Shown here one piece after another: positions 8,290 to 25,715 of a DNA stretch of 64,000 bases; position 1 is the first letter of the stretch, and the number at the start of each line of letters is the position of its first letter. This DNA comes from Verrucomicrobiia bacterium (GTDB lineage: Bacteria > Verrucomicrobiota > Verrucomicrobiia > Limisphaerales > JAEYXS01): NCBI GenBank assembly GCA_036405135.1, contig DASWYF010000018.1, positions 1-64,000 of the forward strand. The letters run 5' to 3'. The translations under genes were made by a program, and so were the position numbers. The notes under the pieces were generated by a model, which was not told where the DNA came from, did no database searches, and worked only from the letters and a program-made list of their open reading frames with translations.

Positions 8290-11200
8290 TTATTGCGGCA
8301 ACTGCCGTATGCGATAGAACCGCAGCAACGAATCCGTATACGGCGTCGGATCCTTGAACGTCGCCGTGGTCCCGGTCACTACGATGCTCGTTAGAGGCGT
8401 CCAGTTTGTCAGATCGGTGGAAACCTCCACCTGATACTTCTCACCCTGCACCGCCGTCCAGGAGAACTCTGGCGTTGTATCACCCGCATTGAACACCGGT
8501 GTTTCCACCTTGATGCCTTCAGTGCTCACCAACAGTGCACCACCAGCCACTTGCAACGGCACAGTGCCGGAGATGCTGTAGGTGATGTTGGTGCTCTCGC
8601 GGTTCACCACTGTGGCGAACCATTCACCAGAAAGGTCGGCTCCTTCGATGACCACCTGCTCACGATTCGTCCCGACCAGCGTGCTGCTATGATCGAACAC
8701 CGTTGCCGTCGGATGCGCTCCCTTGCGTATCAGCAAGTCACCGTCACCCGTCAGATTGAACGCCTCGAACAACAGCTTGCCAGGAGCACCCGTCACATTC
8801 AGATGATAGATGTCCGCAACGATTCCGTTGGTGTAACGGGACAGATTCGTCACCGCCACACCCGATGTCAGGTCCACCACGTTTGTCACCACTTCCACCA
8901 CCGTGATGTTGATCGATTTAACGACACTTTGCGGCGGCACGCCATTATCCGTGATCTTGACCGCCACCACGTTGTTGTTCGGCGAAGCTTCCGAGGTGAT
9001 CCACTCAAAGGCACCCGTGCTTGCATTGATGGTCGCGCCGACTGGAGCCCCGGCTTCAAGGCTGTAAGTCAGCGTCTGCGCTGGCAGATCGGCATCTGTG
9101 GCCGTGAAGACCAATCGCACCGGCAGGCCCTCCACCACCGTCACATTCGGAACTGTTCCCGCCACCGGTGCCACATTTACTTCCTTCACCGTGATCGTGA
9201 AGCTGCGCGTGGTCGCTGCCGTACCATCGCTCACTTCCACCGTCACCACATAGCTGTCCGGGCCTTGCGCCTCTGTCGGCGTCCACGTGATGGCACCGCT
9301 TGAGGAATTGATCACCAGCCCAGTCGGGACCGTTCCCGTGAACTTGTAAGCCAGCGTCTGCGCCGGAGTATCACTATCCGTCGCCACTACTTGCACACTC
9401 AGTGCTGTCAACTCGTTCACTTCCACATCTGCGATCACATTCACGTTCGGAGCAGAGTTCCCTTCCGTCACCGTGACAGAGAGTGTGCGGTTCGCCAAAC
9501 GGGCCGGACTGCCATTATCAGTCACCAGCACGGTCACGCTGTAGGTGTTCGGCCCTTGTGCTTCGGTCGGGGTCCACGAGATCTGTCCTGTGCTGGAAAC
9601 CGTCATTCCAGAAGGAGCCGAAACGAGCGAATAACTCAACGTCTGCGCCGGCAGATCGGCATCCGCCGCTTCCAATTGGTACGACCACGCCTGCATCTCA
9701 GGTATGCTCTGTGTCGGTATGGCCGCCAATGTCGGCGCAAGATTCGCCTCGTTCACTACGAAGTTGATGACTTTCTGCGTCTTCAAGGACGGACTGCCAT
9801 TGTCCTCCGCTTCCACCGTCACACTGTAATTTCCTGGACCTTGCGTTTCATCAGGTGTCCATGAAATCCGGCCGGTGGCGGTATCCAAAGTCATGCCAGC
9901 CGGAACACTGCTGGTGAAACGATATGTCAGCGTCTGCGCCGGCAGGTCAGGATCAGAAGCGATGTTTTCCAGGAAGAACGCCACCTGCTCATTGATGGTC
10001 TGCGTGCCCAAGTTCGAAAACACCGGGGCGCTGTTCACCTCAGCCACCGCCACCTGATAAATGCGCGAGGCGGATAACGGAGGCGTCTGGTTGTCCACGG
10101 CGGAGACCACGAAACTATATGTCACCCCGCCCTGTGATTCAGAAGGAGTCCACGTGATCTCTCCGGTGGTGGAATTGATCGTCATGCCTGCGGGCGCGCT
10201 GCTCAGGGAATAGGTCAGCGCGTTCATGGGCAAGTCGGCATCCGTAGCCGTGATCGTCGCCATGAAAAGACTGCCTTCACTGGCTGAGAACGTAGCCGCT
10301 GGCAGGACTGGCGCACTGTTCACTTCCGTGACATTCACCACAAAGCTGACTGTCGTGCCCTTTGACGGTGCCCCATCATCTTGCACCAGCACGGAGACGT
10401 TGTAGCTGCCCGGACCAAAGGCTTCACCAGGAGTCCACAGGACAAGGCCGGAAACCGGATCAATCGTCATGCCTTCAGGCACGGCGTTGGCAAAGCTATA
10501 GCTCAACGTGTTCACCGGCACATCCGTGTCACTTGCGAACACCTGCACCTGCAAGGTCTCATCCTCGCCCATCGTCACATCTGCGATCGCTTCCACGACT
10601 GGCGCACGGTTCGGCGGCATGATGCGCACATCATAGGTGGTCCCCGTTCCACTCAACGATTTCACACGGGCATACCAGAAACCCGAAACATCCGGCATCG
10701 TCGTAGTAGGAGTGATGGCGATCACACCGTAATCCGTTCCCGTGATGGTGGTGGAGATGTCGAAATTACTGTCCGTGGCCGGACTGCCGCGGTTCAACAA
10801 CACCTCCACATCACCCGTCAAGTTCGATAACTCGAACGAGGCCGCATTATCCGCTGCAGTGATGAAGAAGCTGTATGACCGGTAAATGCTCGGCACATCC
10901 GAGAAGCTGCCTGCTTTGGTGCTGCCTGCCGCCAGGAATGTCGTGGCCGTGCTGTCAAAAGTCACATTCAGCGTGTAGCTGTTGATGTTACCTGTCGGAT
11001 TGGGATTGACCACCGCCAGGAAATAACGCTGCCCAGGCACAAGCGGCGGCGCTGACACACTATCCAACACCACTGAAGCTGATGGGGTCGCCGGAGTCGT
11101 CATCAACAGGCTGGTAGTTGGGCTTCCTATCACCGGCGGGCCCGTTTGATCGTAATACAACTCCAGTCCCAATCCACCACCTGTATCGTCGGTCAGCGTA

Positions 11201-14200
11201 TGCGTGGCCGTAGCCGCAGTCATCGGGGCGTTGATCACAAAATACTGTGTCTGGCCACCATCGACTCTTCCCACATAATCCACGGCATTATCCAGCCGGA
11301 ACGTGGTCGTGTTCGTGTCTGCCAGGAATATCTGCAATTCCCAATCCACGATCCGCGGCACGAAATCGGTCGCCGTGCCGTTCGTGCGCGTATCGATCAC
11401 CTCCAGGCGCCATACCCCGTTGGCAACATCACCGATGAAGTTGTCCAGCGATTCCTCAGGCAGGTAATCATCCTTCACATGGTAGCGGACAATGATGGTA
11501 TCTTCATCGCCTGCGGTCACACGGGTGGTAAGTCCCACTACATAGATGTCCGAGCCTTCCATGGTCACATCCCGGAAACTGTCCGCCTCATTCGCCGTAC
11601 CATTGAATTGCGTGACCCCGGCATATCCTGAAGGGCGCGTGACCAAGGCACCGTCACTCAGACGCACTTCCAACACCACGCCATCCGTCGGGCTGGCACT
11701 GGATGCCCGGGTAGAACCAACGGCATACAGCCGGTCGCCCGCACCCGTCAATCCGTAGAGGATATCCTCATCCCCCAGATCATACGTGATGTCACCAGCC
11801 GTGGACCAGATCACATTCAAGTTGTAATCATATTTCACGATCAGGAAGTTCGCAGCGGAACCGCTCACCGCGTCTTGCACACCCACGGCATACAAATAAT
11901 CGTCATAAGCGATCAAGTTGTTGAACTGGCCTACCACTGGCAGCGCCTGTCGGCCAAGCTCCACCAGTCCAGTCGTGAACTTGATGATCACTGGCCGCAT
12001 CGTGCCGTCGTCATCGCTGAATCCGGCGACAAAGACGGATTGAGCTCCCGCGAGAACATTCGTTAGCACGGCCACGCCGCGTCCGGCGGAAACAGTCGTA
12101 GCGCCGGTGTCATCCTCAAAAGGACTAGCACTGTCGATCACCCCTGCACTATCCAGTTTAACCAGCTTCAAACGGGCTGGGCTGTTGACGCCCTGCGCAT
12201 TACCAGCCGCATATACGTATTCCGTGACCGTCATGGGGCCGGTGCGCTCCATATTAACCGTCACGCTGTGCATCTCTTCCAGACCTTCCACACCCATCAA
12301 TCCCGGAATGGACGTAGCCCAGGTAGATCCCATGGGCGTGGAGTTGTCCAATCCCACAGGAGGGAAGCGGACCACCACACCCTTGGTCTCAGTGCCGCCG
12401 GTATTGTCTGTGGCGCCGGAGAAAGAATCGCCCACCACATATACCGAGCCATTCGTCGAGTAAACCAGATCCCGGAAATGGGTACCACCCGCGTTGTCCG
12501 GCCAGTTCACTGACTCAAATGGCGTCTGTCCCGTCTGCATCGGCAGGCCGAAGCGGGCGTAGATGCCGTTGTTGGCATTACCCTCTGTGATGCCGGCCAC
12601 ATAGAGATTGGTTCCGGCGTAAACCACGCTGTTCAACACCTGGTCGGCAGTCTGTGCCGTCGGTGGATTCACCGGCATTCCACCCGTATCAAACAGTTCA
12701 ATGATGTAATCCCAGCCTGTCCCCGGAGTGCTGATCTGCTCATTGATGATGATGTTCAACAGCTGATCCGTGGTCGTGTAGGCGTATTGCGGCGTCACCA
12801 GCCAGAAATACAGCGGGAAATTGCCCGGTGGCAAACTGGTGATATCTATCGGAGTACCGCCCGCAGTTGTGGCGAGTTGGAAGGATGTATTGCCAACGGT
12901 GTTGACCATGAAGTAACGCACGCGGGCGGACACGCCTCCCGGTCCACCACCGAACAAGGATACTTCCGCTCCATCAACGATCCGCGGATCAGCCGCGCCA
13001 TCTGTTATGGTGTCAGTCGAGATATCGACTTCTGTCGGAGCAATCGTCAAAGCAGGATCATTGTTCACACTGTTCAGAAGGTAATTCGGATTCGGATTGC
13101 CTGTGGGCACCGGATTACCCGTCGAGTCGTAAAGACTGAGACTGTCGTTCGCCGAATAGAACATGTAACGGAACCGGATGAAACCATCCGTTTGTCCGGT
13201 GTCGATCAGGCGTCCCGATGAAGTGTAGGTGTTGCCATGCACCACCGTGATCGTCTGGCTGCCGACGTCTTCCAGTTCGTTCTCCATCACCAGTGATGGT
13301 GTCACGAACGGCACAAAATTCACATCCACCAGCGGGTTCACGAATTTGAGCATCTGCTTCGCCACGCTCGTATCCTCGCTGAAGTGCGTGTAGATGATCT
13401 GGTTCTCATTTGTGCCAAAGCCATAGCCGGCAGTGTTCACCACGCCACCACGGGCCTCCGCCAGCAACACGGAACGATCCTCCGACGTCAGTCGCAAAGT
13501 CAGATCTGACGGACGCGGATGTGCGATGCGCACACCGACACGGACACCGGCCACCTCACCGGCCGCCGACACGTTGATCTCCGATTGGTTGGTAGCCGTT
13601 TGCGCGTCGTCACTGATCATCACCACGCTCCGCTGCGGCGTCGTGCGTTGCGCTGCGGCAGCCAAGTCGTAGGTGAAATCAATCCGGAGCGTGTATGTCA
13701 CGAACACAGCATCCTGATTTTGGATCTGGATGTAATACTGGCCGGCGGTCAAGGGCGGTATGTCCGCCGTGCTGATCGCAAATGGCACGATCAATGGCAT
13801 GGAAGCTGAAACCCCGTAGTCATAGAGACCTGCCGTGCCGTTCGGCAGACCGTTCTTCCGGACGTATAGCCCCGTCGTCGCAGGTGCGGGTGTGGGCACC
13901 AGTGAGAACTCTGCTTTCACCACACCTGGCGGAATGTTGATGCCGGTGTAATAAGACCTTCCCGGCGGCAGACCGAACGTGATCTCTGTTCCACCCACAG
14001 TGATATCCGTGTCCTGCTCTTCCTCAATGTGCAAAGTGAACCGCTGGATATTGCCCACGAACTGCGGGGCATTGTCGATCATCGTGAACATCCATACACC
14101 GGAAGCATCCGTTCCGATGAAATTGTTCAGCGAACCCGGTCCATCAGAAGCGATCCCGCCGACGACATCCCCCTCGTCACTGTCATCATAAACCAACGTC

Positions 14201-17200
14201 AGATTGCCGCCCTGGTTGGTTGAAGAATAGAAAGTGTGATTGTTCAACGTCACCAGGACATTGTTGTGCTCCAATGTACCCACCAGATCGCCGTAGAGGT
14301 CGTGATACATGGTGTTCGTGGCGATGACGCGATGGATGTTGAAAGTGTCCGGCACGATGCCGAACAACTGCACACCCTCCGGTTTCTCAGGATTGCCGTC
14401 TGGAATCTCCGCCGGCACCGGGAAAAATTCGATATCATACGTGCCGTCGCCATTATCAGTGTACGGAGGATCTTCGGTGGCCAGAGCCAAGAAGCCGAAT
14501 TCCGCCGCCTTCTGGTCCTCCGCCTTGATGCCAATGTAATACACCTGTCCCGGTGGAGCATTTTCAATGAGAACAAACTCCGTCCCGCCACGGCGGGTAG
14601 ACACAGCACCGCCAGATGTCGGCGATGTATAGATGCTGTTGTTGAAACAATCGTTTACCACCGTTGAGTTTAAGTTCGTGAGATCCGATGAGGTGGAGAC
14701 ATAAAGATCGATGTCCGCTCCGGGATCGCGATAGGTGTTCACACGCGGATCTCCCGCGAGGTTCGGTGAAAGGAAGGAAACGAACGAGACGTATGGGAAA
14801 GTCGTGTTATTGGTGAACACGTAGAAATTCCATTGCACATTCATGCCGTTCGTGGTCGTGATGAGCGGCGGATTCGCCCCCACGCGTTGCCCCATGAAAG
14901 GCACATTATTCGTGCTGCTTGTGAAAAACTGTACCGCCGGATTGTTGTTTTGAGACAAGGTCGGGCTTTGATCCAGTTGCAGCGCACCATTCAGCAGTGT
15001 ATTGCCCGTGGAGACCACCAGCGCATAGTCCTGCACCACGCCATCGGGATGATCTGTCACCGCATTGACATTGACCCGGCGTGCGGTCACATAGATCGCA
15101 TAATCCGCCGAAAGATCACCCGGCAGGTAAACATTTTCCACATTGTTCACGAAGTCCGCCTGTCCATTGGTCGTGCTGTAATTGCCCAAGGAATAAATAT
15201 TGCCGGAGGGGAAATCGTTTCCGTAAAAGACCTCCTGGGTCACCTTGTTGCTCACCACCAGATCCAGGTCGTTCACCAGCTTGATGCTGGCGGCGGGATT
15301 GCCCGGCGGATCGGTCCAAACCAACGTGACACGCAACGGGAAAGCCCGCGCAGCCGGAGCTACGGTAAGATTCCGTGTGTGGGTCTGCCCGGTCGCCAGC
15401 GCATTCGTCGGGCACTGGTCAAAATATTGGATCGGCCACGTGGTCCGCGTGATGTTGGAAGCCATCGTCAGCGGCAAGGCGTTCGGCAGGTTTACCAAAC
15501 CCCAGCCTTGGTAATTGATCAGGCTGCGCGTCTCAAAGCCGTAGGTTTGTGAGAGCGTGCGGGCGCTGTTGATGAGCATTGCCTTGTAAAGCGCCGGGCT
15601 GTTGTTCGTCTCCCCCAGTTCTCGCTCGAAGAATTCCTGCATCAAGGCCAGAATGCCGGAGACCACGGGAGCCGCCATGCTCGTGCCGACCTCAAAACGA
15701 TAATTGGGCGCCAGCGGGCCATTCAAATTATTGCTGAGCACCTGGAAGTAATTGCCCAGATTGTTCGTCACCCGGATGGTCTCACGGATGTTCACCGCCA
15801 CAGCAGTCGCCCCAACATTTTCCAAGTCATAATACCAGATGCCGGTGGTTGCCGGGGTGATGTTCACCGTCTGCGGAGTCTGGCCCAGCAGATTGAGCGG
15901 ATTGGAAGAAGGCTGCACATCCGTCTGGCTGGCGTAGATGTCGATATTAGGGACGGCCAAAGTGCCGCCGACCGTGTCCAGCACCTCGATCGTGAAGCTC
16001 GTGGTACCATTCGGCAGGAACAGACCGAACGAGTTTATGGCACCCGGCTGCAACACCACGTTGGTGAATGTATTATCCAGGATTACCGTCGGGTTATAGT
16101 AAGCCGCCTCATCCCATGTCGGCGAGCGTCCAGAGATTATCATGGAGCCGGGCGCCAGCAGGTCGGGCTTGGCCCGGCCATACTGGCCCTCGCGTCCGAT
16201 GCCGGTATTACCGCGTCCGGAATAGGATGCCACTTCATTGCTGCTGTCCGTAGTACCTTCCCACCATGCGATGATATTCGTGACGCTGAGATTGGTGTCG
16301 ATGATGGTGACCTCGTTGGTGATGAAGCGGAGAGACTCCGATGCGCCCACGGCGATGACATTCTTGGCGGCCGCCAGACTGCTAACACTGTTGGCCAGAC
16401 CGCCCAAACCGTTGTCGCCACCGAACCCGTCATTTCCTGCAGCGAACACGTAGAGCACCGGCTGTGATCCCGACATGGCAGGGATCGCATCGCGCGTTGC
16501 CGCGTCAAAGATGGCGGAACTGGAATCATACTCGAATGACTCTTCATATCCCCAACTGTTATTGGCGATGAGCGTGTTGGTGCTGCGGTTGGACATCCAC
16601 GTGGTACGAGGCGAGAGCCAGTTCGTCCGGGCGGCATATTCGCTCAACTGAAAGTCAGACAGGTTGCGGTAGTCTTGGGAAAGCAACATCGCTTGCGGCG
16701 CCATACCCCGGAAATCATTGCTAAAAGAGCCCATGAAGGGATAAGTCAGGCCAGTCGGAGCACCGGCTCCATCACCCGCGAGGATCGAGGCCACATGCGT
16801 GCCATGGCCGCGCAGATCGTTGGACAGCGTATTGAATCCCGGGAAAACGCGGCCATACAGGCCCACGAAATTCGTCTCCACGCCGGAATCATTGATGCTC
16901 ACCAAAATGTTTGTGCCTGTCAGACCGCGATAGCCGTTGGCGGTGACACTGTTGCTCGCCACACCGGTGCGTTCCCGGGTCAGGTCATTCATCGGTACGC
17001 GGCGCATCTGCCGCTCGATCGTCTGCACTTGGGGCAAGGACGCGAGTGCTGCCAGTGAATCCTTCTGCGGTTGCACGACCAGTTGGGGACCGAAGGGAGA
17101 GCGGTCCTCACTCAATACCGTGCCGCCCAGTTTCTCTACTTCCTGGCGGGCGATTTGCAGATCGCCGGGGAAGAACGTCAGGCGCAATTTGGAAGCCATG

Positions 17201-17820
17201 GGGACCGGCGCCTTTTTCACGGCTGATTCCAGCAGTGTCTCCTGGATCTTGTAGTAAGGCTCGTAGGGCAGCACAGCCCGCGTCCAGCTCATGCTCGCGA
17301 GTTTCTTGGCTCCGTCTGCATTCACCTGCACGAGGTAGGCATTGTTCGGGATGTAGGCGACGATCTCCGCCCCCACCGACTCAAGCTGGCGACGGAACGA
17401 TTCATTGATGACGCCACGGCTTTGCACAATGTAACTGCCCGGATCGGTTTTGGCCTTCAGATGCTCAGGGATGTCCAGACGGGCTTTCAAGCCGGTATCG
17501 ATGAAGGCATTTCCGAGCAAAATGGCGCGGTCATTGCGGACCAGTTGGTCCATCGTGGCCTGCGTGTTGCGCAGACGGTAGGGAAATTCGGGATCCGACG
17601 GGACGACCGGTTCGTTGGTCCCCAGCAGACGCAGGCTGCTGGCAGGTGCGGCGGTCAGCAAAGGCCCCATCGCCACCGGTGCCGTGACTGCCGTTTGCGA
17701 AGTAACTGGTGGAACTGGCCCCTGCACATTTGTCGCGGTCCGCCACTGCCACCAGACCGCTGCCGTCAAGGCCAGCAACACGAGGCCGGTCGCCCACCGT
17801 GCTGGAGTTAGTTTACGCAT
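8290..17820 (-). CDS. Giant secreted subtilisin-like protease with P-domains, propeller-like insert and six cadherin-like repeats
   Basis: A 3176-residue secreted multidomain protein. Order: membrane/signal segment (~11-26); prodomain-like region; S8 peptidase with Asp in INDSGVE (~310), His in GHGTHVAS (~342) and Ser in GTSMAAPV (~714); a first P-domain (NFIGTDASGVWMF); a second P-domain whose halves (~1393 and ~2120) are separated by ~635 residues containing seven YVAG/YVVG-type repeats; pre-peptidase C-like segments; six ~95-residue NSAP..TWTP.E.QGP repeats (~2400-2970); and a C-terminal DLTNWTPL..RFYRI tail. The start is ATG 17820 rather than the TTG nine bases upstream. It lies 48 bases after the cassette A gene, so it is probably the last gene of that operon and a candidate exported substrate. 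Confidence 0.85.
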   Translation of the reverse strand: MRKLTPARWATGLVLLALTAAVWWQWRTATNVQGPVPPVTSQTAVTAPVAMGPLLTAAPASSLRLLGTNEPVVPSDPEFPYRLRNTQATMDQLVRNDRAILLGNAFIDTGLKARLDIPEHLKAKTDPGSYIVQSRGVINESFRRQLESVGAEIVAYIPNNAYLVQVNADGAKKLASMSWTRAVLPYEPYYKIQETLLESAVKKAPVPMASKLRLTFFPGDLQIARQEVEKLGGTVLSEDRSPFGPQLVVQPQKDSLAALASLPQVQTIERQMRRVPMNDLTRERTGVASNSVTANGYRGLTGTNILVSINDSGVETNFVGLYGRVFPGFNTLSNDLRGHGTHVASILAGDGAGAPTGLTYPFMGSFSNDFRGMAPQAMLLSQDYRNLSDFQLSEYAARTNWLSPRTTWMSNRSTNTLIANNSWGYEESFEYDSSSAIFDAATRDAIPAMSGSQPVLYVFAAGNDGFGGDNGLGGLANSVSSLAAAKNVIAVGASESLRFITNEVTIIDTNLSVTNIIAWWEGTTDSSNEVASYSGRGNTGIGREGQYGRAKPDLLAPGSMIISGRSPTWDEAAYYNPTVILDNTFTNVVLQPGAINSFGLFLPNGTTSFTIEVLDTVGGTLAVPNIDIYASQTDVQPSSNPLNLLGQTPQTVNITPATTGIWYYDLENVGATAVAVNIRETIRVTNNLGNYFQVLSNNLNGPLAPNYRFEVGTSMAAPVVSGILALMQEFFERELGETNNSPALYKAMLINSARTLSQTYGFETRSLINYQGWGLVNLPNALPLTMASNITRTTWPIQYFDQCPTNALATGQTHTRNLTVAPAARAFPLRVTLVWTDPPGNPAASIKLVNDLDLVVSNKVTQEVFYGNDFPSGNIYSLGNYSTTNGQADFVNNVENVYLPGDLSADYAIYVTARRVNVNAVTDHPDGVVQDYALVVSTGNTLLNGALQLDQSPTLSQNNNPAVQFFTSSTNNVPFMGQRVGANPPLITTTNGMNVQWNFYVFTNNTTFPYVSFVSFLSPNLAGDPRVNTYRDPGADIDLYVSTSSDLTNLNSTVVNDCFNNSIYTSPTSGGAVSTRRGGTEFVLIENAPPGQVYYIGIKAEDQKAAEFGFLALATEDPPYTDNGDGTYDIEFFPVPAEIPDGNPEKPEGVQLFGIVPDTFNIHRVIATNTMYHDLYGDLVGTLEHNNVLVTLNNHTFYSSTNQGGNLTLVYDDSDEGDVVGGIASDGPGSLNNFIGTDASGVWMFTMIDNAPQFVGNIQRFTLHIEEEQDTDITVGGTEITFGLPPGRSYYTGINIPPGVVKAEFSLVPTPAPATTGLYVRKNGLPNGTAGLYDYGVSASMPLIVPFAISTADIPPLTAGQYYIQIQNQDAVFVTYTLRIDFTYDLAAAAQRTTPQRSVVMISDDAQTATNQSEINVSAAGEVAGVRVGVRIAHPRPSDLTLRLTSEDRSVLLAEARGGVVNTAGYGFGTNENQIIYTHFSEDTSVAKQMLKFVNPLVDVNFVPFVTPSLVMENELEDVGSQTITVVHGNTYTSSGRLIDTGQTDGFIRFRYMFYSANDSLSLYDSTGNPVPTGNPNPNYLLNSVNNDPALTIAPTEVDISTDTITDGAADPRIVDGAEVSLFGGGPGGVSARVRYFMVNTVGNTSFQLATTAGGTPIDITSLPPGNFPLYFWLVTPQYAYTTTDQLLNIIINEQISTPGTGWDYIIELFDTGGMPVNPPTAQTADQVLNSVVYAGTNLYVAGITEGNANNGIYARFGLPMQTGQTPFESVNWPDNAGGTHFRDLVYSTNGSVYVVGDSFSGATDNTGGTETKGVVVRFPPVGLDNSTPMGSTWATSIPGLMGVEGLEEMHSVTVNMERTGPMTVTEYVYAAGNAQGVNSPARLKLVKLDSAGVIDSASPFEDDTGATTVSAGRGVAVLTNVLAGAQSVFVAGFSDDDGTMRPVIIKFTTGLVELGRQALPVVGQFNNLIAYDDYLYAVGVQDAVSGSAANFLIVKYDYNLNVIWSTAGDITYDLGDEDILYGLTGAGDRLYAVGSTRASSASPTDGVVLEVRLSDGALVTRPSGYAGVTQFNGTANEADSFRDVTMEGSDIYVVGLTTRVTAGDEDTIIVRYHVKDDYLPEESLDNFIGDVANGVWRLEVIDTRTNGTATDFVPRIVDWELQIFLADTNTTTFRLDNAVDYVGRVDGGQTQYFVINAPMTAATATHTLTDDTGGGLGLELYYDQTGPPVIGSPTTSLLMTTPATPSASVVLDSVSAPPLVPGQRYFLAVVNPNPTGNINSYTLNVTFDSTATTFLAAGSTKAGSFSDVPSIYRSYSFFITAADNAASFELSNLTGDVEVLLNRGSPATDSNFDISTTITGTDYGVIAITPTTTMPDVSGFWYARVKSLSGTGTTYDVRIMPPNRAPVVEAIADVTMGEDETLQVQVFASDTDVPVNTLSYSFANAVPEGMTIDPVSGLVLWTPGEAFGPGSYNVSVLVQDDGAPSKGTTVSFVVNVTEVNSAPVLPAATFSASEGSLFMATITATDADLPMNALTYSLSSAPAGMTINSTTGEITWTPSESQGGVTYSFVVSAVDNQTPPLSASRIYQVAVAEVNSAPVFSNLGTQTINEQVAFFLENIASDPDLPAQTLTYRFTSSVPAGMTLDTATGRISWTPDETQGPGNYSVTVEAEDNGSPSLKTQKVINFVVNEANLAPTLAAIPTQSIPEMQAWSYQLEAADADLPAQTLSYSLVSAPSGMTVSSTGQISWTPTEAQGPNTYSVTVLVTDNGSPARLANRTLSVTVTEGNSAPNVNVIADVEVNELTALSVQVVATDSDTPAQTLAYKFTGTVPTGLVINSSSGAITWTPTEAQGPDSYVVTVEVSDGTAATTRSFTITVKEVNVAPVAGTVPNVTVVEGLPVRLVFTATDADLPAQTLTYSLEAGAPVGATINASTGAFEWITSEASPNNNVVAVKITDNGVPPQSVVKSINITVVEVVTNVVDLTSGVAVTNLSRYTNGIVADIYHLNVTGAPGKLLFEAFNLTGDGDLLIRKGAHPTATVFDHSSTLVGTNREQVVIEGADLSGEWFATVVNRESTNITYSISGTVPLQVAGGALLVSTEGIKVETPVFNAGDTTPEFSWTAVQGEKYQVEVSTDLTNWTPLTSIVVTGTTATFKDPTPYTDSLLRFYRIRQLPQ

Positions 17821-17868
17821 ATTCGTCAAAAAAAATTTCTGTCAACTCTCACACTGTCCACTGCCCTA

Positions 17869-20800
17869 CTACTCTGCCGGGATGACGGTGAAGTTTTCCA
17901 CCACCGCACGCGGATTGCGCGGACCACCCTCGATCCGCAGCACGGTGCGTGTGACGTGCTCGCTCACCACAGTGTAGTTCGTCACCATACCACGATACTG
18001 GCCGGAGAGCACTACGGAGTTTGCCGCCGGCTTGAGCGCCTGGCCCCACGAATAGACCACCACGCGGGGCATATCATCCACCTTCAGCAAGGAGAGTATC
18101 TGCTGCGGTATCCGTTCGATCGCCACGTCGTGCACACCGTAAAGCATGTTGCTGTCAAATAAGCTCAAGTACGGAGATTTATCATTTGGGGTGTCTCCCA
18201 CCGACAATTGCGGGACAGAGAGTATGTCGCCCATCCGCACAAAGGCATTGGTCGTGACCAGCCCGCCACCGAGATTGGCCAATCGCGTGGAACGCGTCAG
18301 ATTGATGCCGTCCACGATCTCGCGGAGCTGGGTGCCCGTCGGGTCCAGCAGCAAGTTTGTGTAAGTCAGCGTCGCCGTGCCGATGTTCGTCAGGTTCGCT
18401 GAGCTGTTAAAATCCATGGTGTTCGAAAGCACGAGCACATCCCCCAGAACGGCGGCCCAGGCTCCATAATTCGTCTGGTTCACTGAAAGCAAGCCGGATA
18501 CCGAGCGGACATCCGTGGCCGTCGTGAAGAAATCGGGCAGGACCCAGTCATTCGTAGGATGGGTGAAACGGTTGTAAGCCCAACGTCTCCAGTCGTAATT
18601 CGGGTCTTGGTCCGGGATCGCACCGGCTTTCATGTACACCGTCTGCCAGGGCGTGCCACGATGCACCCGGCCCAGCCAGCCGATATTGGCGAACTTCTGT
18701 CCCGGGAAATCCCAGTCGTCCGCCTTGCGGATCTGCGGGTCTTTCACGCGGTACTCGTAAGTGTAATCGATCGGCATCGGCTCATCATACGGCAACACCG
18801 AGCTGCGGCCCCGGCCTTGACGCACACCCCATGGGCGATAGCGGTCGTTCACGAAGTTCAGGTTGTTCGTGACCAGTGGTGCGGAGCTGGGACGGATGAG
18901 GAACGGCAGCAAGTTAACACCGCCTTGGTCCCCCATGTCTTCCATCGTGTAATGGACGAGCGGGTCATTTGCCTGCCAGTAGTTCGTGAAAACGATCTTG
19001 GCCACGGCAGTGAAAGGCGTCTGCATGTTCGTACTGCTGGGCATGCGCACGTAATAAAGCGGGTTGCCATTCGGGTTGGAGTGATACGGTGCCACACCGG
19101 TCACCGGCTGGCCCATGAAGCGTTGGAACGTTGCTGTTCCCAGCAGCTTGTCCATCTGCGACTGGCTTTGCAGTCCGTAGTTGTTCCAATCCTGCTGGGA
19201 GATCGCGCGCCCTTGTAGCGTGTTCCTGCCCAAGGAGACATAGATCTGGTTGAGCACACCGCGGGTCACATGATTGCTGGTGGTGCCACCGATGCGATTG
19301 GTATCGAAGAGTTCATGCAAAAGCCCGGCATCCACCAACCCGGCCTGACCGGGGAAGGCGTCGGCATTGACAAGGTTGGCCATCACATCCTCCACGCCGA
19401 ACGTGAAACTGTCGTAATTCACGAAATCCACCACCCGGTCGGAATCCCGGTCCATGATCGCCGCGAACATGCGGTTGGACATGCTCAGGCCCCAGCGCGG
19501 GACATAGAACTGCTGCCCACGCTCATAAACGACGTTCGTGCCCACCACGTTCGAGATGGTGACGAACTGGCCGGAGGAATTGAAGAATTGCGCGTCCGGC
19601 AGGAACACGTAATTCGTGTAGAACGGCAGGAAGAACGCGTTGCTGGTCCAGGCGTTGGCGGCGAAAGAGGCATTCGTCGCCATCGCAAATGAGCGGCTGC
19701 GGATGGCCCCGAACTGGTTCGTCAGATGCGCGAACACATCCAGACGCGCGAGGATGTCCAAGTTGCGCGGGTAGGCGTTCGTATAAGGATTCCACATCTC
19801 GCCACCGAGCAGATTGGAGATACCCAGCACGAACAACTGGTTCGTCTGGCGTAATGTCACCGGCGTATTCGTGTTCGCCTTCAACACTTCGAGCCGGCGG
19901 CTCACCTGGATCGCCGAACGCAGCGCGAACTCGTTGAAATTCGGATATCCCTTCTTCACCCCGATCACCCACGGCACGCCCCAGATGTTGTTCGTGATCA
20001 CCTGCCCCACATAAGCCATGTTCGTGCTGGCGAATTCCCGCGTGATATACGGATAGTTCACCGGCGCCGTGTTGGTGACCTCCTCATAACGGACGATGGA
20101 GACAACGTTGTTATAATTCGTGAAGATCGGCCGGAAGACTGTGGGGAAATAAGGATAGCCGCTGATGTTCCGGTTCGTGGTCGCATCAAAGATGTTCGCC
20201 GTCAGTTGCAGCATGCGATGCACCGCCGCCGTGTAACGGTTGGTCGGATAGATCTCGATGTGGTTGGTGTGCGCGTAATCTGTCAGCGAGATGTTAAAAT
20301 TGGTCCGCAGCAGGCGTTCCGCCGTTTCATTGAAGAAATTGGTCGCTTCCCAGCCGATGAATGCCGTGGGCGAGTTCGGCTGCCGGTTGTCGTAATTCAG
20401 ATGCACCTTCTCGCCTGGCGGAATGGAGCTGACCGTGCCGAGCTGGGACAGCATGCGCGGGATCGTGTAACGATCATATGTGGATACATTCGTGCCAACC
20501 AACAGCAACCGTGTGGTAAAATCGTTAGTCATTGGAGGCGTGGGCGTGACCGCACCTGAGGAATAAGGACGCCCGCGGACAAACAGCTCGTTGAAATCAA
20601 AATAGGCGATCGATGTCGGATTCGTATTCGCACCGCCCGGCCACGAATCCGTAGGTACATCGTATTCTAATGTCGGCAACCGCAACCCGATCATCGGCTG
20701 CGCATACAGATAGTGGTCGATGAAATCATTGGTGATCGCGTAATCCCCCACGGTGCCGTATGAATAATCAACGGAAGCCAGGTTGTTGAAATTTGGGTTG

Positions 20801-21699
20801 CGGTAGGAAAGCAGCGCCTTCGCATCGATGAAAGCCAAGCCGCGATTGGCGACGGTATAGTTGGTATAATATTCGTAAAACGGTGCGGCCAGCAGGCTGA
20901 TATTCGTCGTCCAGACATTCGGTGCCGCCCAGACGTTGGAGTTGATGTTCGCCAGCATCGCCGCCAGGTTCAGCTCATGGCTGCCCACGCCTTGGTTGCG
21001 GCGGAAGCTGGAGGAAAAGCTCGTCACCGGCGTGATCTTCTTGGCCTCATTGTGAAGGTAATTCAGATCCAGGCTCTTGCCGTAGGGCACGATCATCCAG
21101 GCGATGCGCCCCACGAACTTGTTGCTGCTGGAGTGCAGCCGGCGTTCACCACCGAAATTGGTAGGCATCGAGAACTGGAAAATGCCTTTCCACTGCGGAT
21201 CGCCCACGTAATAATTTGTCGTTCCTGTCGCTGATCCGAATTCATTCGTCTCGGCCAGCCAGCCGGTGGGCTCGAAGAAGCCGTTGCGGTTGAAATCCAG
21301 CCAGAAGCGGTGCTGCCAAGGCTGGGTGGAATCAGCCAGATTAGTCCGCACATAAACCGGAGGACGTGCATCATAGATGAGCTGGCTGATGAAGTTCGTG
21401 ACATTGGATTCCGGCACCGGATTCGCGGTGTCCAGCCGGTACGGGACGGTGGTCTCGGAGACGATCAGGTCATAGAGATACGGATTCGTGGTGGCGAGCA
21501 TCCGGGCCACCAGCTCGGTTTGTGCTTCAGCCAGGGCGACACCGGCGAGCGTCTTGGCGTCCATCATGTCCTCGGACACGATCACGTTATCCTTCTCCCG
21601 CATGGTGACCGCCAGGAACACCACGGCCGTGAACGTGATCAGCGAAAGCATGATCAACGTGGTGACCAGGGCGACGGCGCTTTGTTGACGACGTTTCAT
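17869..21699 (-). CDS. Verru_Chthon cassette protein A-like, large PilX-type protein
   Basis: A 1276-residue protein with a short basic N-terminus and one hydrophobic helix (ALVTTLIMLSLITFTAVVFLA), as in PilX/minor-pilin-like proteins, followed by a very large Asn/Thr/Tyr-rich, probably extracytoplasmic domain. It matches my memory of cassette protein A, the big member of a four-gene set named after Verrucomicrobium and Chthoniobacter. Its function is not established. The start ATG directly abuts the stop codon of the cassette C gene (TAA then ATG), so translation is coupled. Residues 25-60 form an amphipathic helix (KTLAGVALAEAQTELVARML) like the N-terminal stem of pilins. Family assignment comes from layout and N-terminus, not a search. 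Confidence 0.75.
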   Translation of the reverse strand: MKRRQQSAVALVTTLIMLSLITFTAVVFLAVTMREKDNVIVSEDMMDAKTLAGVALAEAQTELVARMLATTNPYLYDLIVSETTVPYRLDTANPVPESNVTNFISQLIYDARPPVYVRTNLADSTQPWQHRFWLDFNRNGFFEPTGWLAETNEFGSATGTTNYYVGDPQWKGIFQFSMPTNFGGERRLHSSSNKFVGRIAWMIVPYGKSLDLNYLHNEAKKITPVTSFSSSFRRNQGVGSHELNLAAMLANINSNVWAAPNVWTTNISLLAAPFYEYYTNYTVANRGLAFIDAKALLSYRNPNFNNLASVDYSYGTVGDYAITNDFIDHYLYAQPMIGLRLPTLEYDVPTDSWPGGANTNPTSIAYFDFNELFVRGRPYSSGAVTPTPPMTNDFTTRLLLVGTNVSTYDRYTIPRMLSQLGTVSSIPPGEKVHLNYDNRQPNSPTAFIGWEATNFFNETAERLLRTNFNISLTDYAHTNHIEIYPTNRYTAAVHRMLQLTANIFDATTNRNISGYPYFPTVFRPIFTNYNNVVSIVRYEEVTNTAPVNYPYITREFASTNMAYVGQVITNNIWGVPWVIGVKKGYPNFNEFALRSAIQVSRRLEVLKANTNTPVTLRQTNQLFVLGISNLLGGEMWNPYTNAYPRNLDILARLDVFAHLTNQFGAIRSRSFAMATNASFAANAWTSNAFFLPFYTNYVFLPDAQFFNSSGQFVTISNVVGTNVVYERGQQFYVPRWGLSMSNRMFAAIMDRDSDRVVDFVNYDSFTFGVEDVMANLVNADAFPGQAGLVDAGLLHELFDTNRIGGTTSNHVTRGVLNQIYVSLGRNTLQGRAISQQDWNNYGLQSQSQMDKLLGTATFQRFMGQPVTGVAPYHSNPNGNPLYYVRMPSSTNMQTPFTAVAKIVFTNYWQANDPLVHYTMEDMGDQGGVNLLPFLIRPSSAPLVTNNLNFVNDRYRPWGVRQGRGRSSVLPYDEPMPIDYTYEYRVKDPQIRKADDWDFPGQKFANIGWLGRVHRGTPWQTVYMKAGAIPDQDPNYDWRRWAYNRFTHPTNDWVLPDFFTTATDVRSVSGLLSVNQTNYGAWAAVLGDVLVLSNTMDFNSSANLTNIGTATLTYTNLLLDPTGTQLREIVDGINLTRSTRLANLGGGLVTTNAFVRMGDILSVPQLSVGDTPNDKSPYLSLFDSNMLYGVHDVAIERIPQQILSLLKVDDMPRVVVYSWGQALKPAANSVVLSGQYRGMVTNYTVVSEHVTRTVLRIEGGPRNPRAVVENFTVIPAE

Positions 21700-22530
21700 T
21701 TAGTTGGCGTTCCGCACCGGGATGCGCGTGCGAAATATATGTACGGCACTGGAGCGGTTGGTTGTTTCCTGCAAAAATGCCCTCTGCACGCTGGGGTTCG
21801 GCATACTGCGTGCCTGCAGCAGCACCTTCGGCTCCAGCACTCCCACTTCCAGTTCCAGATAGGCTGGCAGGAAGGTGTTCGTGAACGAATAATTGGACGT
21901 ATCCACATTGGACCCGTACGAATCGTAAGCCCGCAAAGCGAGATGGATCACCCCATCAGCGACCAGCTGGGCCGCATTCGGATTGTTGTTGGTATAGTAG
22001 TTGGCGAACAAATCGCTTGAATTGTGATAGTAATCGTTCGTGGTGTAGGAATAGCGGCGCAACGTTCCCACCCCGAGATTCGTATAGAGCATCTCATCAC
22101 CATAATTAGTGGAGGTCTGCCCGACATAATACGCGATGCCCGTCCATTGCGATGTCTTGGTAAGGAAGAAAAACTCCTGCACCAGATTTGTGAAAAGATT
22201 GCTGCCCACCATCGAGTTCTGGCGGAAGCCGTTGATCTGGTTGCCGCTGCTCAGGACGATCGGGTGGATGTAGAGGTTCGTCCGTCCGTAGATGTTGGCC
22301 GCATGCATCTGCTCCAGATCACGCACCATCATTTCCATGAAATTGCGCCCGCCTTCCAGCACATCCTTCTGCGTGGTCGTCTCCAAGAACGCCTTCTGCG
22401 TCCGGTCGAACATCGAGTAGAGACCGAAGATGATGATCGTCAGCACGCTTATGGCCACCATGAGCTCCAGCAGCGTCAGAGCGCGCTGGCGGACTTGGCG
22501 GCGAATATGGTTGGTGACGGCTAGGTTCAT
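21700..22530 (-). CDS. Verru_Chthon cassette protein C-like pseudopilin
   Basis: A 276-residue prepilin-like protein. The N-terminus RQRA/LTLLELMVAIS begins a 20-residue hydrophobic helix with the conserved Glu at +5 (mature numbering), followed by DRTQKAF and GGRNFMEMMVRDLEQM, which recalls GspJ-type minor pseudopilins. The residue before the predicted cleavage point is Ala, not the usual Gly. The ATG overlaps the stop of the cassette B gene (ATGA) and the stop abuts the cassette A start. It is likely an inner-membrane subunit that joins a pseudopilus tip. The letter C is assigned by similarity of the N-terminus and gene order. Confidence 0.75.
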   Translation of the reverse strand: MNLAVTNHIRRQVRQRALTLLELMVAISVLTIIIFGLYSMFDRTQKAFLETTTQKDVLEGGRNFMEMMVRDLEQMHAANIYGRTNLYIHPIVLSSGNQINGFRQNSMVGSNLFTNLVQEFFFLTKTSQWTGIAYYVGQTSTNYGDEMLYTNLGVGTLRRYSYTTNDYYHNSSDLFANYYTNNNPNAAQLVADGVIHLALRAYDSYGSNVDTSNYSFTNTFLPAYLELEVGVLEPKVLLQARSMPNPSVQRAFLQETTNRSSAVHIFRTRIPVRNAN

Positions 22531-23306
22531 GGCAGTCCGGTGAATTCGTTGGGACGGAAGCGGAAAAACCCGTTGATATCACGCTCCAGTTTTCCGGAGA
22601 CGATGGATTGGAAGCTCTTACGTCCATTGCCCACCGTGTTGTTAGGATATACAGGCCAGCTCAGGTTCACGCGCAAGTTATAGAGATTCGCCTGAAACGC
22701 AGCACTCACATCTGCGCCTGAATTGGTCATGTAATTGGTCGAGAGGATCATCGGAGCGATATCCACGGTGACCAGGTAGCTGAAAGCAAAATCACGTGTG
22801 CCCCGGACCGGATCTTCCGTCAGGCGGTCAGCCAGCGGTCCGCTGTTGGCCACGAACTTGGCCTGTACCCAATTGCTGACGTACCCGCTCGGTGTATTCG
22901 TATCGATCACGAAACGTGGCGTGCTCAGGATGCCTGCGATGCGATAGGCGAGCACATTGGTCGCGATGGTCGCGTTTAAAAGGTCAGAGCGCTGGTAACG
23001 GCCTTCCAGGCCGACCACGGTGGAAGGAGGGATGTTCGTATAAGATTCGATCCATTCCAAGTTTTGCGCCAGAACGTTCACATTAGTCATACCGTTCTTG
23101 ATGACTTCCAAGATGAACTGGCCGTCCTGGTTGATGATCGTCTGCTCGCGGTTGTCCCGCTGCACCTGCATGCCCGTGGGCAGGATGCCGATCACCGCGA
23201 CGATCGCGAATGCGATGATAGCCAGGCTCAACGCCACCTCCACCATCGTGAAGGCCAGCGTGCCCTGCCGCAAGCGGAGGCTGCTCTTATGTGATGTCAG
23301 CTTCAT
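22527..23306 (-). CDS. Verru_Chthon cassette protein B-like pseudopilin
   Basis: A 259-residue prepilin-like protein with a basic leader (MKLTSHKSSLRLRQG) and the helix A/FTMVEVALSLAIIAFAIVAVIGILPTGM. The conserved Glu is at +5 and Ala is at -1. The ILPTGMQVQRDNREQTI segment after the helix is typical of cassette B proteins as I remember them. The start at 23306 overlaps the preceding stop as ATGA and gives a normal leader; a 39-residue upstream extension in the same frame lies inside the previous gene and is rejected. Probably a minor component of the assembled structure. Confidence 0.75.
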   Translation of the reverse strand: MKLTSHKSSLRLRQGTLAFTMVEVALSLAIIAFAIVAVIGILPTGMQVQRDNREQTIINQDGQFILEVIKNGMTNVNVLAQNLEWIESYTNIPPSTVVGLEGRYQRSDLLNATIATNVLAYRIAGILSTPRFVIDTNTPSGYVSNWVQAKFVANSGPLADRLTEDPVRGTRDFAFSYLVTVDIAPMILSTNYMTNSGADVSAAFQANLYNLRVNLSWPVYPNNTVGNGRKSFQSIVSGKLERDINGFFRFRPNEFTGLP

Positions 23307-24196
23307 TGTATCTGGGGCTGCAGGAATTTGCCGCGGCCCGTCAGCCAGTTGATCTCGATCTCGTGCGCGTAGATCGTGACATTTGTATAATTGACACCTT
23401 GGTTGATGCCGTTCGTCTCCCATTCACGAAAGACAACCGTCGGTGCATCTGGACGGATGACTGAGGGGAACAGGGGCGAATAAATCAGGCTGTCACCCAA
23501 GGCCGGATCGCGCTGGCGCGAGATGCGGGCCTCAGACACCTGCACACGGAAATTCTGCCCGCCCACGAGCTGCCCCATCGAATTGAAGGCAAGGTATGGC
23601 AGCCGGAAGGTCGCCGGCGTTTCCGCACTTGGGAAAGGAAAATTCCGGTAGCTGAAAGGGGTGACATACTGGCCGCTGATATAGTTCGTCCTGATCGGCA
23701 GAGCCGGGCTCTCGATGAACTGATACGGATGCACCACGACTCCCGGGGGCAGCTCTTTCCATTTGGTGAGATAGCGCGGTGTGTAACTGCCCGGCTGATC
23801 CCCAACGGAACGTTCCGAGAAGAGCGCATACCCGCTATATGTCATGCCGGAAAGATTCGTCACCGCCGTCCGGTCCAAGAAATTGGTGGAGTAAGGCAAC
23901 GCAGCCAGATTGATGTTGAGGATGTCATCCGGCAGGAACACGACATATACAGTGGAGCGCGTGGCCATCGCTTTGGTGCGGGCCAAAGCCAGATCATCCA
24001 GCAACTGGCGACCGCCTGCCGAGAGTTTGTCTCCCGCTCCGAAGCGCGAAACGATCGGCGCCGCCAAACCCGCCAGAATACCGATGATCGCGATCACCAC
24101 CAGCAACTCGATCAAGGTGAAGGCACGCAGATGGCGTCCCCCGGCCGGGTTCTGCACCCCGCCCTTGTCCGATTGTTTGCTGAGAGCGACGTTCAT
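23303..24196 (-). CDS. Verru_Chthon cassette protein D-like pseudopilin (GspH-like)
   Basis: A 297-residue prepilin-like protein. The leader ends in RHLRA and the helix is FTLIELLVVIAIIGILAGLAAP with Glu at +5. After it comes AGGRQLLDDLALARTKAMATRSTVYVVFL, the pattern of GspH/FimT-type minor pseudopilins and of cassette D. Ala rather than Gly occupies -1. The ATG is 11 bases past the previous gene's stop and the TGA overlaps the next ATG, so it is firmly within the operon. The C-terminal half is predicted beta-rich and extracytoplasmic; its binding partner is unknown. Confidence 0.78.
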   Translation of the reverse strand: MNVALSKQSDKGGVQNPAGGRHLRAFTLIELLVVIAIIGILAGLAAPIVSRFGAGDKLSAGGRQLLDDLALARTKAMATRSTVYVVFLPDDILNINLAALPYSTNFLDRTAVTNLSGMTYSGYALFSERSVGDQPGSYTPRYLTKWKELPPGVVVHPYQFIESPALPIRTNYISGQYVTPFSYRNFPFPSAETPATFRLPYLAFNSMGQLVGGQNFRVQVSEARISRQRDPALGDSLIYSPLFPSVIRPDAPTVVFREWETNGINQGVNYTNVTIYAHEIEINWLTGRGKFLQPQIQ

Positions 24197-24207
24197 GGGA
24201 TCTTATT

Positions 24208-25014
24208 TTATTTCCAGCTCAGGACGTTGTCCGTGTTCACACCTGCATCAGCGGAGATGTTCGGATCGGATTTGGCATCCGGCCCTTTGCTCCAGATCAT
24301 CACGGGCCCGCGGAACACGAAATCATTATTGCTGGGATTGCCGGATTTGCTGAAGAGACCGTTCTGACCGTTGGGATCGGTGGTGACGCTCGGGTCCTTG
24401 AGCGAAACGCCCATGCGGGAGTAGAAGCCGTCCTGGGTCACACCATCATAGTTCGCGTCAATGGTGATGAAAAAGGGATTCTTCCACACATCACGGTATA
24501 CGTTATCCGTGGGTCCCAAACCGGCCAGACGATCTGCGGACGCGCGTTTGGGATTGATGTATTCCTTCTTCTGCGGGTTGTTCAGGTGATTGGGGTTGTG
24601 CATCGTATGCGCCTGCCCCATGAGGATGGGCATGATCGCGGCGTTATTGGTTTGCCGCCCCACGAAATTGTTCACCACCACATCCGAGCCGGTGTACTCT
24701 GGCGAGCTGTCCGGCAGTAATAATCCTGAGGTGCCATAGGTGAAGTCCGGCTGGCCCGCACCGCGATTGTCCGCATCCATCGGCCAGATGCTATAGGTGG
24801 CCTTGAACGCGATGATGGACTGTTCCAACTGTGAAATCTCGTTCTTGGTCCGTGCGATCTGGGCTCTCTTTTTGGCATTACTCAAGGCCGGGATCAACAT
24901 GCCCGCCAGAATGGCGATGATGGCGATGACCACCAGCATCTCGATCAGCGTGAAGCCGCGAGTATTTCCCCTCATGCCCGAAAATTTCACTTTTGCTTTC
25001 ATGTTCAAAATCAT
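24208..25014 (-). CDS. Type II secretion-like pseudopilin (GspG type)
   Basis: A 268-residue prepilin-like protein: basic leader ending NTRG, helix FTLIEMLVVIAIIAILAGMLIPAL, then SNAKKRAQIARTKNEISQLEQSIIAFKATYSIWP. That helix and the spacing to the tyrosine/proline turn are those of major pseudopilins such as GspG. It is the only pseudopilin in this operon with Gly at the -1 cleavage position. The start overlaps the preceding stop as TAATG (25012-25016); an internal Met four residues on is an alternative start. It could be the main shaft subunit of a pseudopilus built with the cassette proteins. Confidence 0.82.
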   Translation of the reverse strand: MILNMKAKVKFSGMRGNTRGFTLIEMLVVIAIIAILAGMLIPALSNAKKRAQIARTKNEISQLEQSIIAFKATYSIWPMDADNRGAGQPDFTYGTSGLLLPDSSPEYTGSDVVVNNFVGRQTNNAAIMPILMGQAHTMHNPNHLNNPQKKEYINPKRASADRLAGLGPTDNVYRDVWKNPFFITIDANYDGVTQDGFYSRMGVSLKDPSVTTDPNGQNGLFSKSGNPSNNDFVFRGPVMIWSKGPDAKSDPNISADAGVNTDNVLSWK

Positions 25015-25715
25015 TATTGCGGCGCTCTTTCCAAAGTGATCACGTCCTTCTCCCAGTTGCTGGCCCGGTAACGGTTGCCGCCCACTTCAAACTCGATCCA
25101 CAGATCGAACCGCCCCTGATTGTTCGTCGGATTCGTGGAGACATAACGTACAGGATTGAACAAGGATCCGCTGGCATTCGTGATCATGTTCATCTCCACG
25201 TCTTTCACGCGGGCTTTGAGGAGACGGATGTTCGCCCCGTCAATCGTACGGAGGCTCTCCACATCGGTGGAATTGAGGGATTCAAGGAAGGTCTTGGACT
25301 TGGGAGACTCGGGGTTGTTCGCATCATGCGTCACGTTGCGCAGGCCATCCTGTTTAAAGTGATTGCGCACTTCATTTTCCAAGATGTTTTCAGACACCGT
25401 TTCATAACGGCTCATCGTAGAATTGAAGGTGGAACCCATCAGCTCGTAATAGAGCGGATGCACGGCATTGCGCTTGGGCAGGCTCAGGTCCGGATTGTCC
25501 AACGGGTAACTGTTGAACTGGGCGTGATAGGAATTGATAAGCGTGTCCAGATTTTCGATCTGGGCCTTGGCACCGGCTTTGGCACGCTTGACCATCACTC
25601 CCTTGACCACAGGAAACGTGATCCCCGCCAGGATACCGATGATGGCGATCACCACCAGCATCTCGATGAGCGTGAACGCTCCCCTGTTTTTCCCGTGTTT
25701 TTGGCTCAGCTTCAT
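25014..25715 (-). CDS. Type II secretion-like pseudopilin (GspG type), first in series
   Basis: A 233-residue prepilin-like protein: leader MKLSQKHGKNRGA, helix FTLIEMLVVIAIIGILAGITFPVV, then KAQIENLDTLINSYHAQFNSYPLDNPD, a GspG-like stem and turn. Either Ala13 or Gly12 could precede cleavage; alignment with FTLIE puts Ala at -1. It begins 28 bases after the antitoxin stop on the same strand, with no terminator or obvious promoter between, so it may depend on the toxin-antitoxin promoter. Together with the next gene it gives the operon two major-type pseudopilins. Confidence 0.82.
   Translation of the reverse strand: MKLSQKHGKNRGAFTLIEMLVVIAIIGILAGITFPVVKGVMVKRAKAGAKAQIENLDTLINSYHAQFNSYPLDNPDLSLPKRNAVHPLYYELMGSTFNSTMSRYETVSENILENEVRNHFKQDGLRNVTHDANNPESPKSKTFLESLNSTDVESLRTIDGANIRLLKARVKDVEMNMITNASGSLFNPVRYVSTNPTNNQGRFDLWIEFEVGGNRYRASNWEKDVITLERAPQ

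Follow-up and report, generated by a model that had tools for sequence, protein, structure and literature searches.

The second P-domain of a giant subtilase-type protease from a bacterium of the order Limisphaerales (Verrucomicrobiia) is almost certainly divided into two halves of one domain, which enclose an insert bearing a beta-propeller. The gene is located on the minus strand of the window, that is, the whole stretch of 64,000 nucleotides that was analyzed (contig DASWYF010000018.1, positions 1 to 64,000). The same P-domain is split in the relatives of this protease and filled there with a variety of modules, and it very probably serves as an insertion socket throughout the order.

The protease gene (8290..17829, minus strand) codes for 3,179 amino acid residues as judged from the translation, with an ATG at residue 4 as a likelier start than the TTG and with a hydrophobic signal or anchor sequence at the N terminus. 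The S8 catalytic domain at residues ~305-745 (15595..16917, minus) was recognized by Pfam (Peptidase_S8, 103 bits) and by its intact Asp, His, and Ser motifs, DSG at 314, GHGTH at 341, and GTSMAAP at 715. Just ahead of this serine motif, the S8 domain is broken by ~145 residues (~565-712; window 15694-16137), for which no Pfam family scored above its cut-off. Tandem He_PIG/cadherin-like Ig repeats were assigned by Pfam to residues 2415-2880 near the C terminus (9190..10587, minus). Pfam also gave two matches to the proprotein convertase P-domain, PF01483 (profile length 86, curated cut-off of 21 bits), in the same ORF as Peptidase_S8, so that the P-domain is attached to a subtilase. The first P-domain, residues ~1150-1275 (14005..14382, minus), is contiguous, as a previous sequence-only reading of this DNA had stated, with its N part directly before the match of the C-half profile at 1237-1264; the PF01483 match, to profile positions 51-85, is weak with 19.3 bits and just under the cut-off. 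The other Pfam match, at residues 2127-2166, covers the C-terminal part of the profile only.

The N-terminal part of this second P-domain comprises residues 1402-1499 (13333..13626, minus), including the FSEDT...KF strand segment, and matches PF01483 at positions 3-38 and the Aeromonas sobria protease ASP (3hjr) at 460-503. The C-terminal part, residues 2124-2170 (11320..11460, minus), contains YLPEESLDNFIGDVANGVWRLEVIDTR...DWELQIF and matches PF01483 at positions 52-85. Each half alone remained under the PF01483 cut-off, with 14.5 bits for the N half and 20.6 bits for the C half; when both were joined in silico, the match extended over positions 3-85 of 86 with 31.9 bits. Against the contiguous P-domains found in the same order, a profile of the joined halves, built with 68 split domains from relatives, reached an hhalign score of 92.8, with 106 columns aligned. 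The controls reached 65.9 (N half only), 36.1 (C half only), 67.1 (order swapped), and 67.1 (N half with reversed C half). Searched against the PDB, the joined profile matched both parts of the contiguous P-domain in the solved protease (3hjr/3wqb), at 460-503 and 536-560, with an E value of 2.8e-9. The complementary coverage of the profile, the controls, and the match to 3hjr/3wqb together indicate that the two halves are complementary parts of one domain.

An AlphaFold model of residues 1395-2175, calculated from an alignment of 63 rows, had an overall pTM of 0.61 and predicted strands in both halves, mostly with pLDDT values of 72-89. The N part was modeled with four strands in blocks mostly of pLDDT 79-88 across its first ~60 residues, and the C part with strands 744-752 and 765-775 (model numbering; pLDDT 72-89). 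The halves would pack as one jelly-roll fold. The split of the P-domain by an insertion, as proposed before, is borne out by the complementary profile coverage, by the structure model, and by relatives with one site empty or differently filled. The N half had been thought to stop abruptly near residue 1430; the break is real, but the half continues past ARGG to the IIYTHFSEDTSVAKQMLKFVNP segment, up to ~1499. All motifs quoted in the sequence-only reading were found in place, HPRPSDLTL at 1437, LYVAGITEG at 1742, VYVVGDSFS at 1796, VFVAGFSDD at 1932, LYAVGVQDA at 1979, and NFIGDVANG at 2130, and the ORF contains further repeat motifs, YVYAAGNAQ at 1871, LYAVGSTRA at 2034, and IYVVGLTTR at 2095.

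The insert is composed of ~235 residues of uncertain fold and a subsequent propeller. It had been described as a propeller-like insertion of ~635 residues, which holds for the presence of the insert, but its length is ~625 residues and only the last ~390 form the propeller. The first part, residues 1500-1735 (12625..13332, minus), includes the N part of a beta-sandwich module, named SAND (~1539-1568), plus further sequence, as seen with the SAND profile and AlphaFold. The N part of SAND matched its profile with an E value of ~1e-6 and the C part with ~4 bits only, and AlphaFold gave no confident model for residues 1500-1700 (pLDDT mostly <50). A beta-sandwich nested in the insert of the window is tentatively suggested, with its N part supported and its C part unsupported.

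The seven-bladed beta-propeller at residues ~1729-2123 (11461..12624, minus) was assigned by AlphaFold, Foldseek, and alignment to the propellers of orthologs. It is confidently predicted, with seven repeats of four strands each forming the blades at model positions 335-723 (residues 1729-2117), mostly with pLDDT values of 75-97. The best PDB match of the insert in Foldseek was CylK (7roo, E value of 8.3e-17), followed by many other propellers, so that the suspected seven-bladed propeller between the halves agrees with the predicted structure and with Foldseek. Among the Foldseek rows shown for this model of the window protease, only propellers occur, since a sequential alignment is not able to bridge the split. 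CylK is an alkylating enzyme, and its propeller is not situated within a P-domain. The propeller of CylK (7roo, 7ron) is the best match by fold, at 16% identity, and no common function is claimed. No Pfam family, the known propeller families SBBP, NHL, and DUF5122 included, matched the propeller above its cut-off (there was only DUF5122, with 14.4 bits and a cut-off of 27), and no second copy of the propeller was found in the genome from which the window originates. A single-sequence phmmer search of the PDB with this stretch gave no matches.

Most Limisphaerales genomes (Verrucomicrobia subdivision 3) encode the orthologous protease, and nearly all sequences compared are metagenome bins. In the search for relatives, matches occurred in 46 of 58 genomes, nearly all from the same order, and the matches of the N half and the C half often shared one open frame with very different spacing between them. 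The N-half profile, applied to a class-wide sample, matched 23 of the 25 listed genomes of the same order (with that of the window included). Outside this order it matched only three genomes of the class, of which one gave a strong match, and in the rest of the phylum its matches were weak only. The named loci are mostly from bins assigned to Verrucomicrobia subdivision 3 or Limisphaerales. A tblastn search of plasmids gave no matches, and a single-sequence scan of genome contigs found no relative. Two contigs titled "Proteobacteria" (L088 and L089; RFSE01000007.1 and RFVF01000103.1) carry a protease of the Limisphaerales type, suggesting mislabeled bins; L088 also has the upstream partner described below. 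At L061, L084, and L108, the protease is distributed across at least two overlapping frames, which reflects a frameshift or an error of assembly.

The second P-domain is split in all of the 68 distinct split domains, by inserts of 135 to 1,096 residues with a median of 432.5, and both halves are retained in every one of them; all 42 scanned sequences of split domains match PF01483. The relatives examined include no ortholog whose second P-domain is continuous. In the 15 contiguous P-domains, 25-59 residues separate the halves; those of giant proteins of the same order (L076, L079, L081, and L082) are homologous over the 106 columns and have no insert. One of these proteins, the 5,133-aa ORF L082 (G000:C38), is a second giant protein in the genome of the window and, with two contiguous P-domains, a natural control. 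The expectation that a domain nested within a P-domain would be rare was not confirmed, since such nesting is the rule across the order. At L112:4996-8783, two adjacent genes each possess a split P-domain, and the second gene has no adjacent upstream partner.

The socket has two insertion points, which flank the conserved strand FTEDTNxxxxPIKFAxPPF, and the domains are split at one or both of them. Site 2 is the loop ahead of the YLPEESL...GxWxLExxD half, and site 1 is situated ~25 residues before site 2. According to the module mapping, the SAND beta-sandwich fills site 1 in about half of the cases and a DUF642-like jelly roll occupies site 2 in most, many with a LamG module inside the roll. 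Propellers at site 2 were found in the window, L035/L086, L036/L087, L037, L038, and L089, and by inspection also in L065 and L088. At L105, L107, L109, L112, and L114, the C half comes almost directly after the FTEDT...PPF strand. One alignment contains a natural series from an empty site 2 to a site with a jelly roll and further to a jelly roll holding LamG. Pfam identified Laminin_G_3 in 14, DUF642 in 6, and Lectin_C in 2 of the 42 split-domain sequences, plus NHL. A model of the L100 version displayed the same segments (pLDDT 72.7, pTM 0.47), and its LamG part matched the folds of CBM40, arabinanase domain 4, pentraxin, and related lectins. The LamG part also matched receptor-binding folds of clostridial toxins, and there was one weak Pfam hit of this kind; these matches were discounted, as they reflect the lectin fold common to both.

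Some occupants are themselves rearranged or nested. In six loci (L098, L057, L058, L059, L064, and L104), the C-terminal half of LamG precedes its N-terminal half, so that the module is circularly permuted, always at site 1; swapping the halves back in L098 yielded one continuous Laminin_G_3 match over 5-150 of 151. An apparent four-level nest is located at site 1 of L097:4731-8171 (DIXK01000061.1), with a DUF642-like module in a LamG, in a DUF642-like roll, in the P-domain. Rejoining the LamG halves extended the match from 45-150 to 6-150 of 151, and the outer roll is supported by a profile built in this analysis and not by Pfam. L037:943-3141 and L038:8423-10435 contain a beta-sandwich between the strands of a propeller blade, with the propeller itself in the P-domain. 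L101:5406-8141 has an NHL-type propeller in a DUF642-like roll at site 2 and a LamG in another roll at site 1.

Turnover of these contents was followed on a tree of 59 orthologs, which was calculated from the protein part upstream of the split. The content changed at least 10 times at site 1 and at least 17 times at site 2. Compared with a mean of 28 for shuffled contents of site 2, this indicates that the content is inherited yet often turned over. The hypothesis that the propeller insert arose only once was not rejected (p-AU of 0.148, 24 rows; p of 0.037 for the window and L036 grouped alone), and independent gains of the propeller are for this reason not claimed. The propeller may be an old occupant that was replaced elsewhere.

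The protease gene is the last of an operon on the minus strand that starts with two GspG-like pseudopilin genes (25014..25715 and 24208..25014), both with an N-terminal gspG match and a prepilin motif above cut-off. Next are a GspH-like or Verru_Chthon D-like pseudopilin (23303..24196; TIGR02596 and gspH below cut-off, prepilin motif above), a pseudopilin in the GspI position that is Verru_Chthon B-like (22527..23423; N-terminal TIGR02598 match below cut-off), and a GspJ-like or Verru_Chthon C-like minor pseudopilin (21700..22530; TIGR02599 and N-terminal gspJ below cut-off, plus N_methyl). Directly upstream of the protease, a 1,276-aa protein with an N-terminal membrane segment takes the GspK position as judged from the gene order (17869..21699), and no family model matched it above cut-off. 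Prepilin-type N termini were recognized above cut-off by Pfam N_methyl in three genes and by TIGR02532 in four, which agrees with minor pseudopilins. None of the full-length GspG, GspH, GspI, GspJ, or GspK models was matched, and all specific matches were N-terminal only and below the cut-offs. In 50 of 54 ortholog loci, the gene immediately upstream of the protease gene, on the same strand, codes for a homolog of the 1,276-aa protein, and loci without this adjacent partner are mostly second copies or have a split frame. The genome of the window also has secretins and T2SSF proteins, which is only permissive for type II export.

To explain these data, the second P-domain would fold as one jelly roll although the loop that leads into the YLPEESL...GxWxLExxD half interrupts its chain; in other species, this loop or the point ~25 residues earlier holds lectin-like or other beta modules. 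A pseudopilus resembling a type II secretion system or type IV pilus would probably export or hold the protease, and the displayed module would most likely bind a polysaccharide or protein substrate, bringing the catalytic domain to it. This explanation as a whole, a permanent insertion socket that shows a binding module on a pseudopilus-exported protease, is considered reasonably probable. Binding of the modules to a substrate or surface is slightly favored and the pseudopilus-linked export of the protease is evenly balanced, the former suggested by the lectin-like occupants in relatives and the latter by the gene order; the presence of lectin-like folds in relatives is no proof of binding by the propeller. 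It could equally well be true or not that evolution kept a two-site socket whose binding modules are exchanged and nested recursively, up to four levels, with permuted LamG adapted to one site, and that this would retarget the secreted protease.

Other explanations have to be considered. An assembly or frameshift artefact that fused unrelated genes has a negligible probability: beyond the general risk of draft genomes, nothing specific speaks for it, while 3,179 codons are open, an independent ortholog, with 59-61% identity across the whole stretch, has this frame open as well, and dozens of relatives are split alike. It is very improbable that the halves are two separate, pseudo-complete domains, with the N part folding together with the next 200 residues, the C part a short independent domain, and the likeness to a P-domain a relic of duplication. 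A profile match of each half alone and the presence of another P-domain in the protein make duplicated fragments conceivable, but in all relatives the profile regions matched by the two halves are complementary and do not overlap, no split domain has lost either half, and in five loci (L105, L107, L109, L112, and L114) the C half comes almost directly behind the FTEDT...PPF strand.

The inserts might be structural spacers or stalks without a specific ligand, making the protein longer or screening the P-domain. The strong turnover, variable length, and lack of a conserved occupant fit such a weak constraint, but the content is folded, not of low complexity, and repeatedly of a lectin or ligand-binding type (Laminin_G_3, Lectin_C, DUF642), with the fold matches to CBM40, arabinanase domain 4, and pentraxin, so that this explanation is unlikely. 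To a similar degree it is doubtful that the protein acts chiefly as an adhesin at the pilus tip or on the surface, with the protease domain used for self-processing and not for external digestion. The order of minor pseudopilins, large partner, and protease and the many adhesive repeats at the C terminus would agree with an adhesin; the intact S8 catalytic motifs of the window protease argue against it, and subtilases of such a kind are usually secreted degradative enzymes.

Among known systems, the P/Homo B domain of ASP (3hjr, 3wqb) belongs to the same family, is likewise attached to an S8 domain, and is matched by both parts of the split domain. The parts are 32 residues apart in ASP, whereas ~625 residues including the propeller lie between them in the window protease. 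The operon resembles type II minor pseudopilin operons and Verru_Chthon cassettes (TIGR02596/02598/02599) in the G, H, I, and J-like order with a large protein in the place of GspK, but the matches in the window are N-terminal and below cut-off and the 1,276-aa partner matches no model. LamG-type modules in enzymes of Verrucomicrobia are already known (PMC5615132). Nested insertions were cataloged from ECOD, up to six-level nesting in a cyanobacterial RNA polymerase (PMC13114784), and the A1-B-A2 and A1-B1-C-B2-A2 architectures described there follow the same principle. The inserts in that catalog are usually the smaller partners, with medians of 115 residues versus 199 for the host domains, while here a host of ~145 residues holds ~625 residues and up to ~1,100 in relatives; its main text mentions neither proprotein nor propeller (PMC13114784). 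No description of a P-domain as an insertion socket was found in the open-access literature.

In most orthologs examined, a domain of ~145 residues holds hundreds of residues, at least 135, while the content turns over. The natural series with one site empty, filled, or doubly filled lends itself to studies of the tolerance of a fold to insertion and of the ways in which secreted proteases acquire new binding specificity. A giant protease that occurs throughout an order of poorly cultured environmental bacteria becomes linked to a pseudopilus operon, which gives it a testable function. If the explanation is true, a small host domain would tolerate a cargo several times its own size, which would have been changed repeatedly to retarget a secreted protease.
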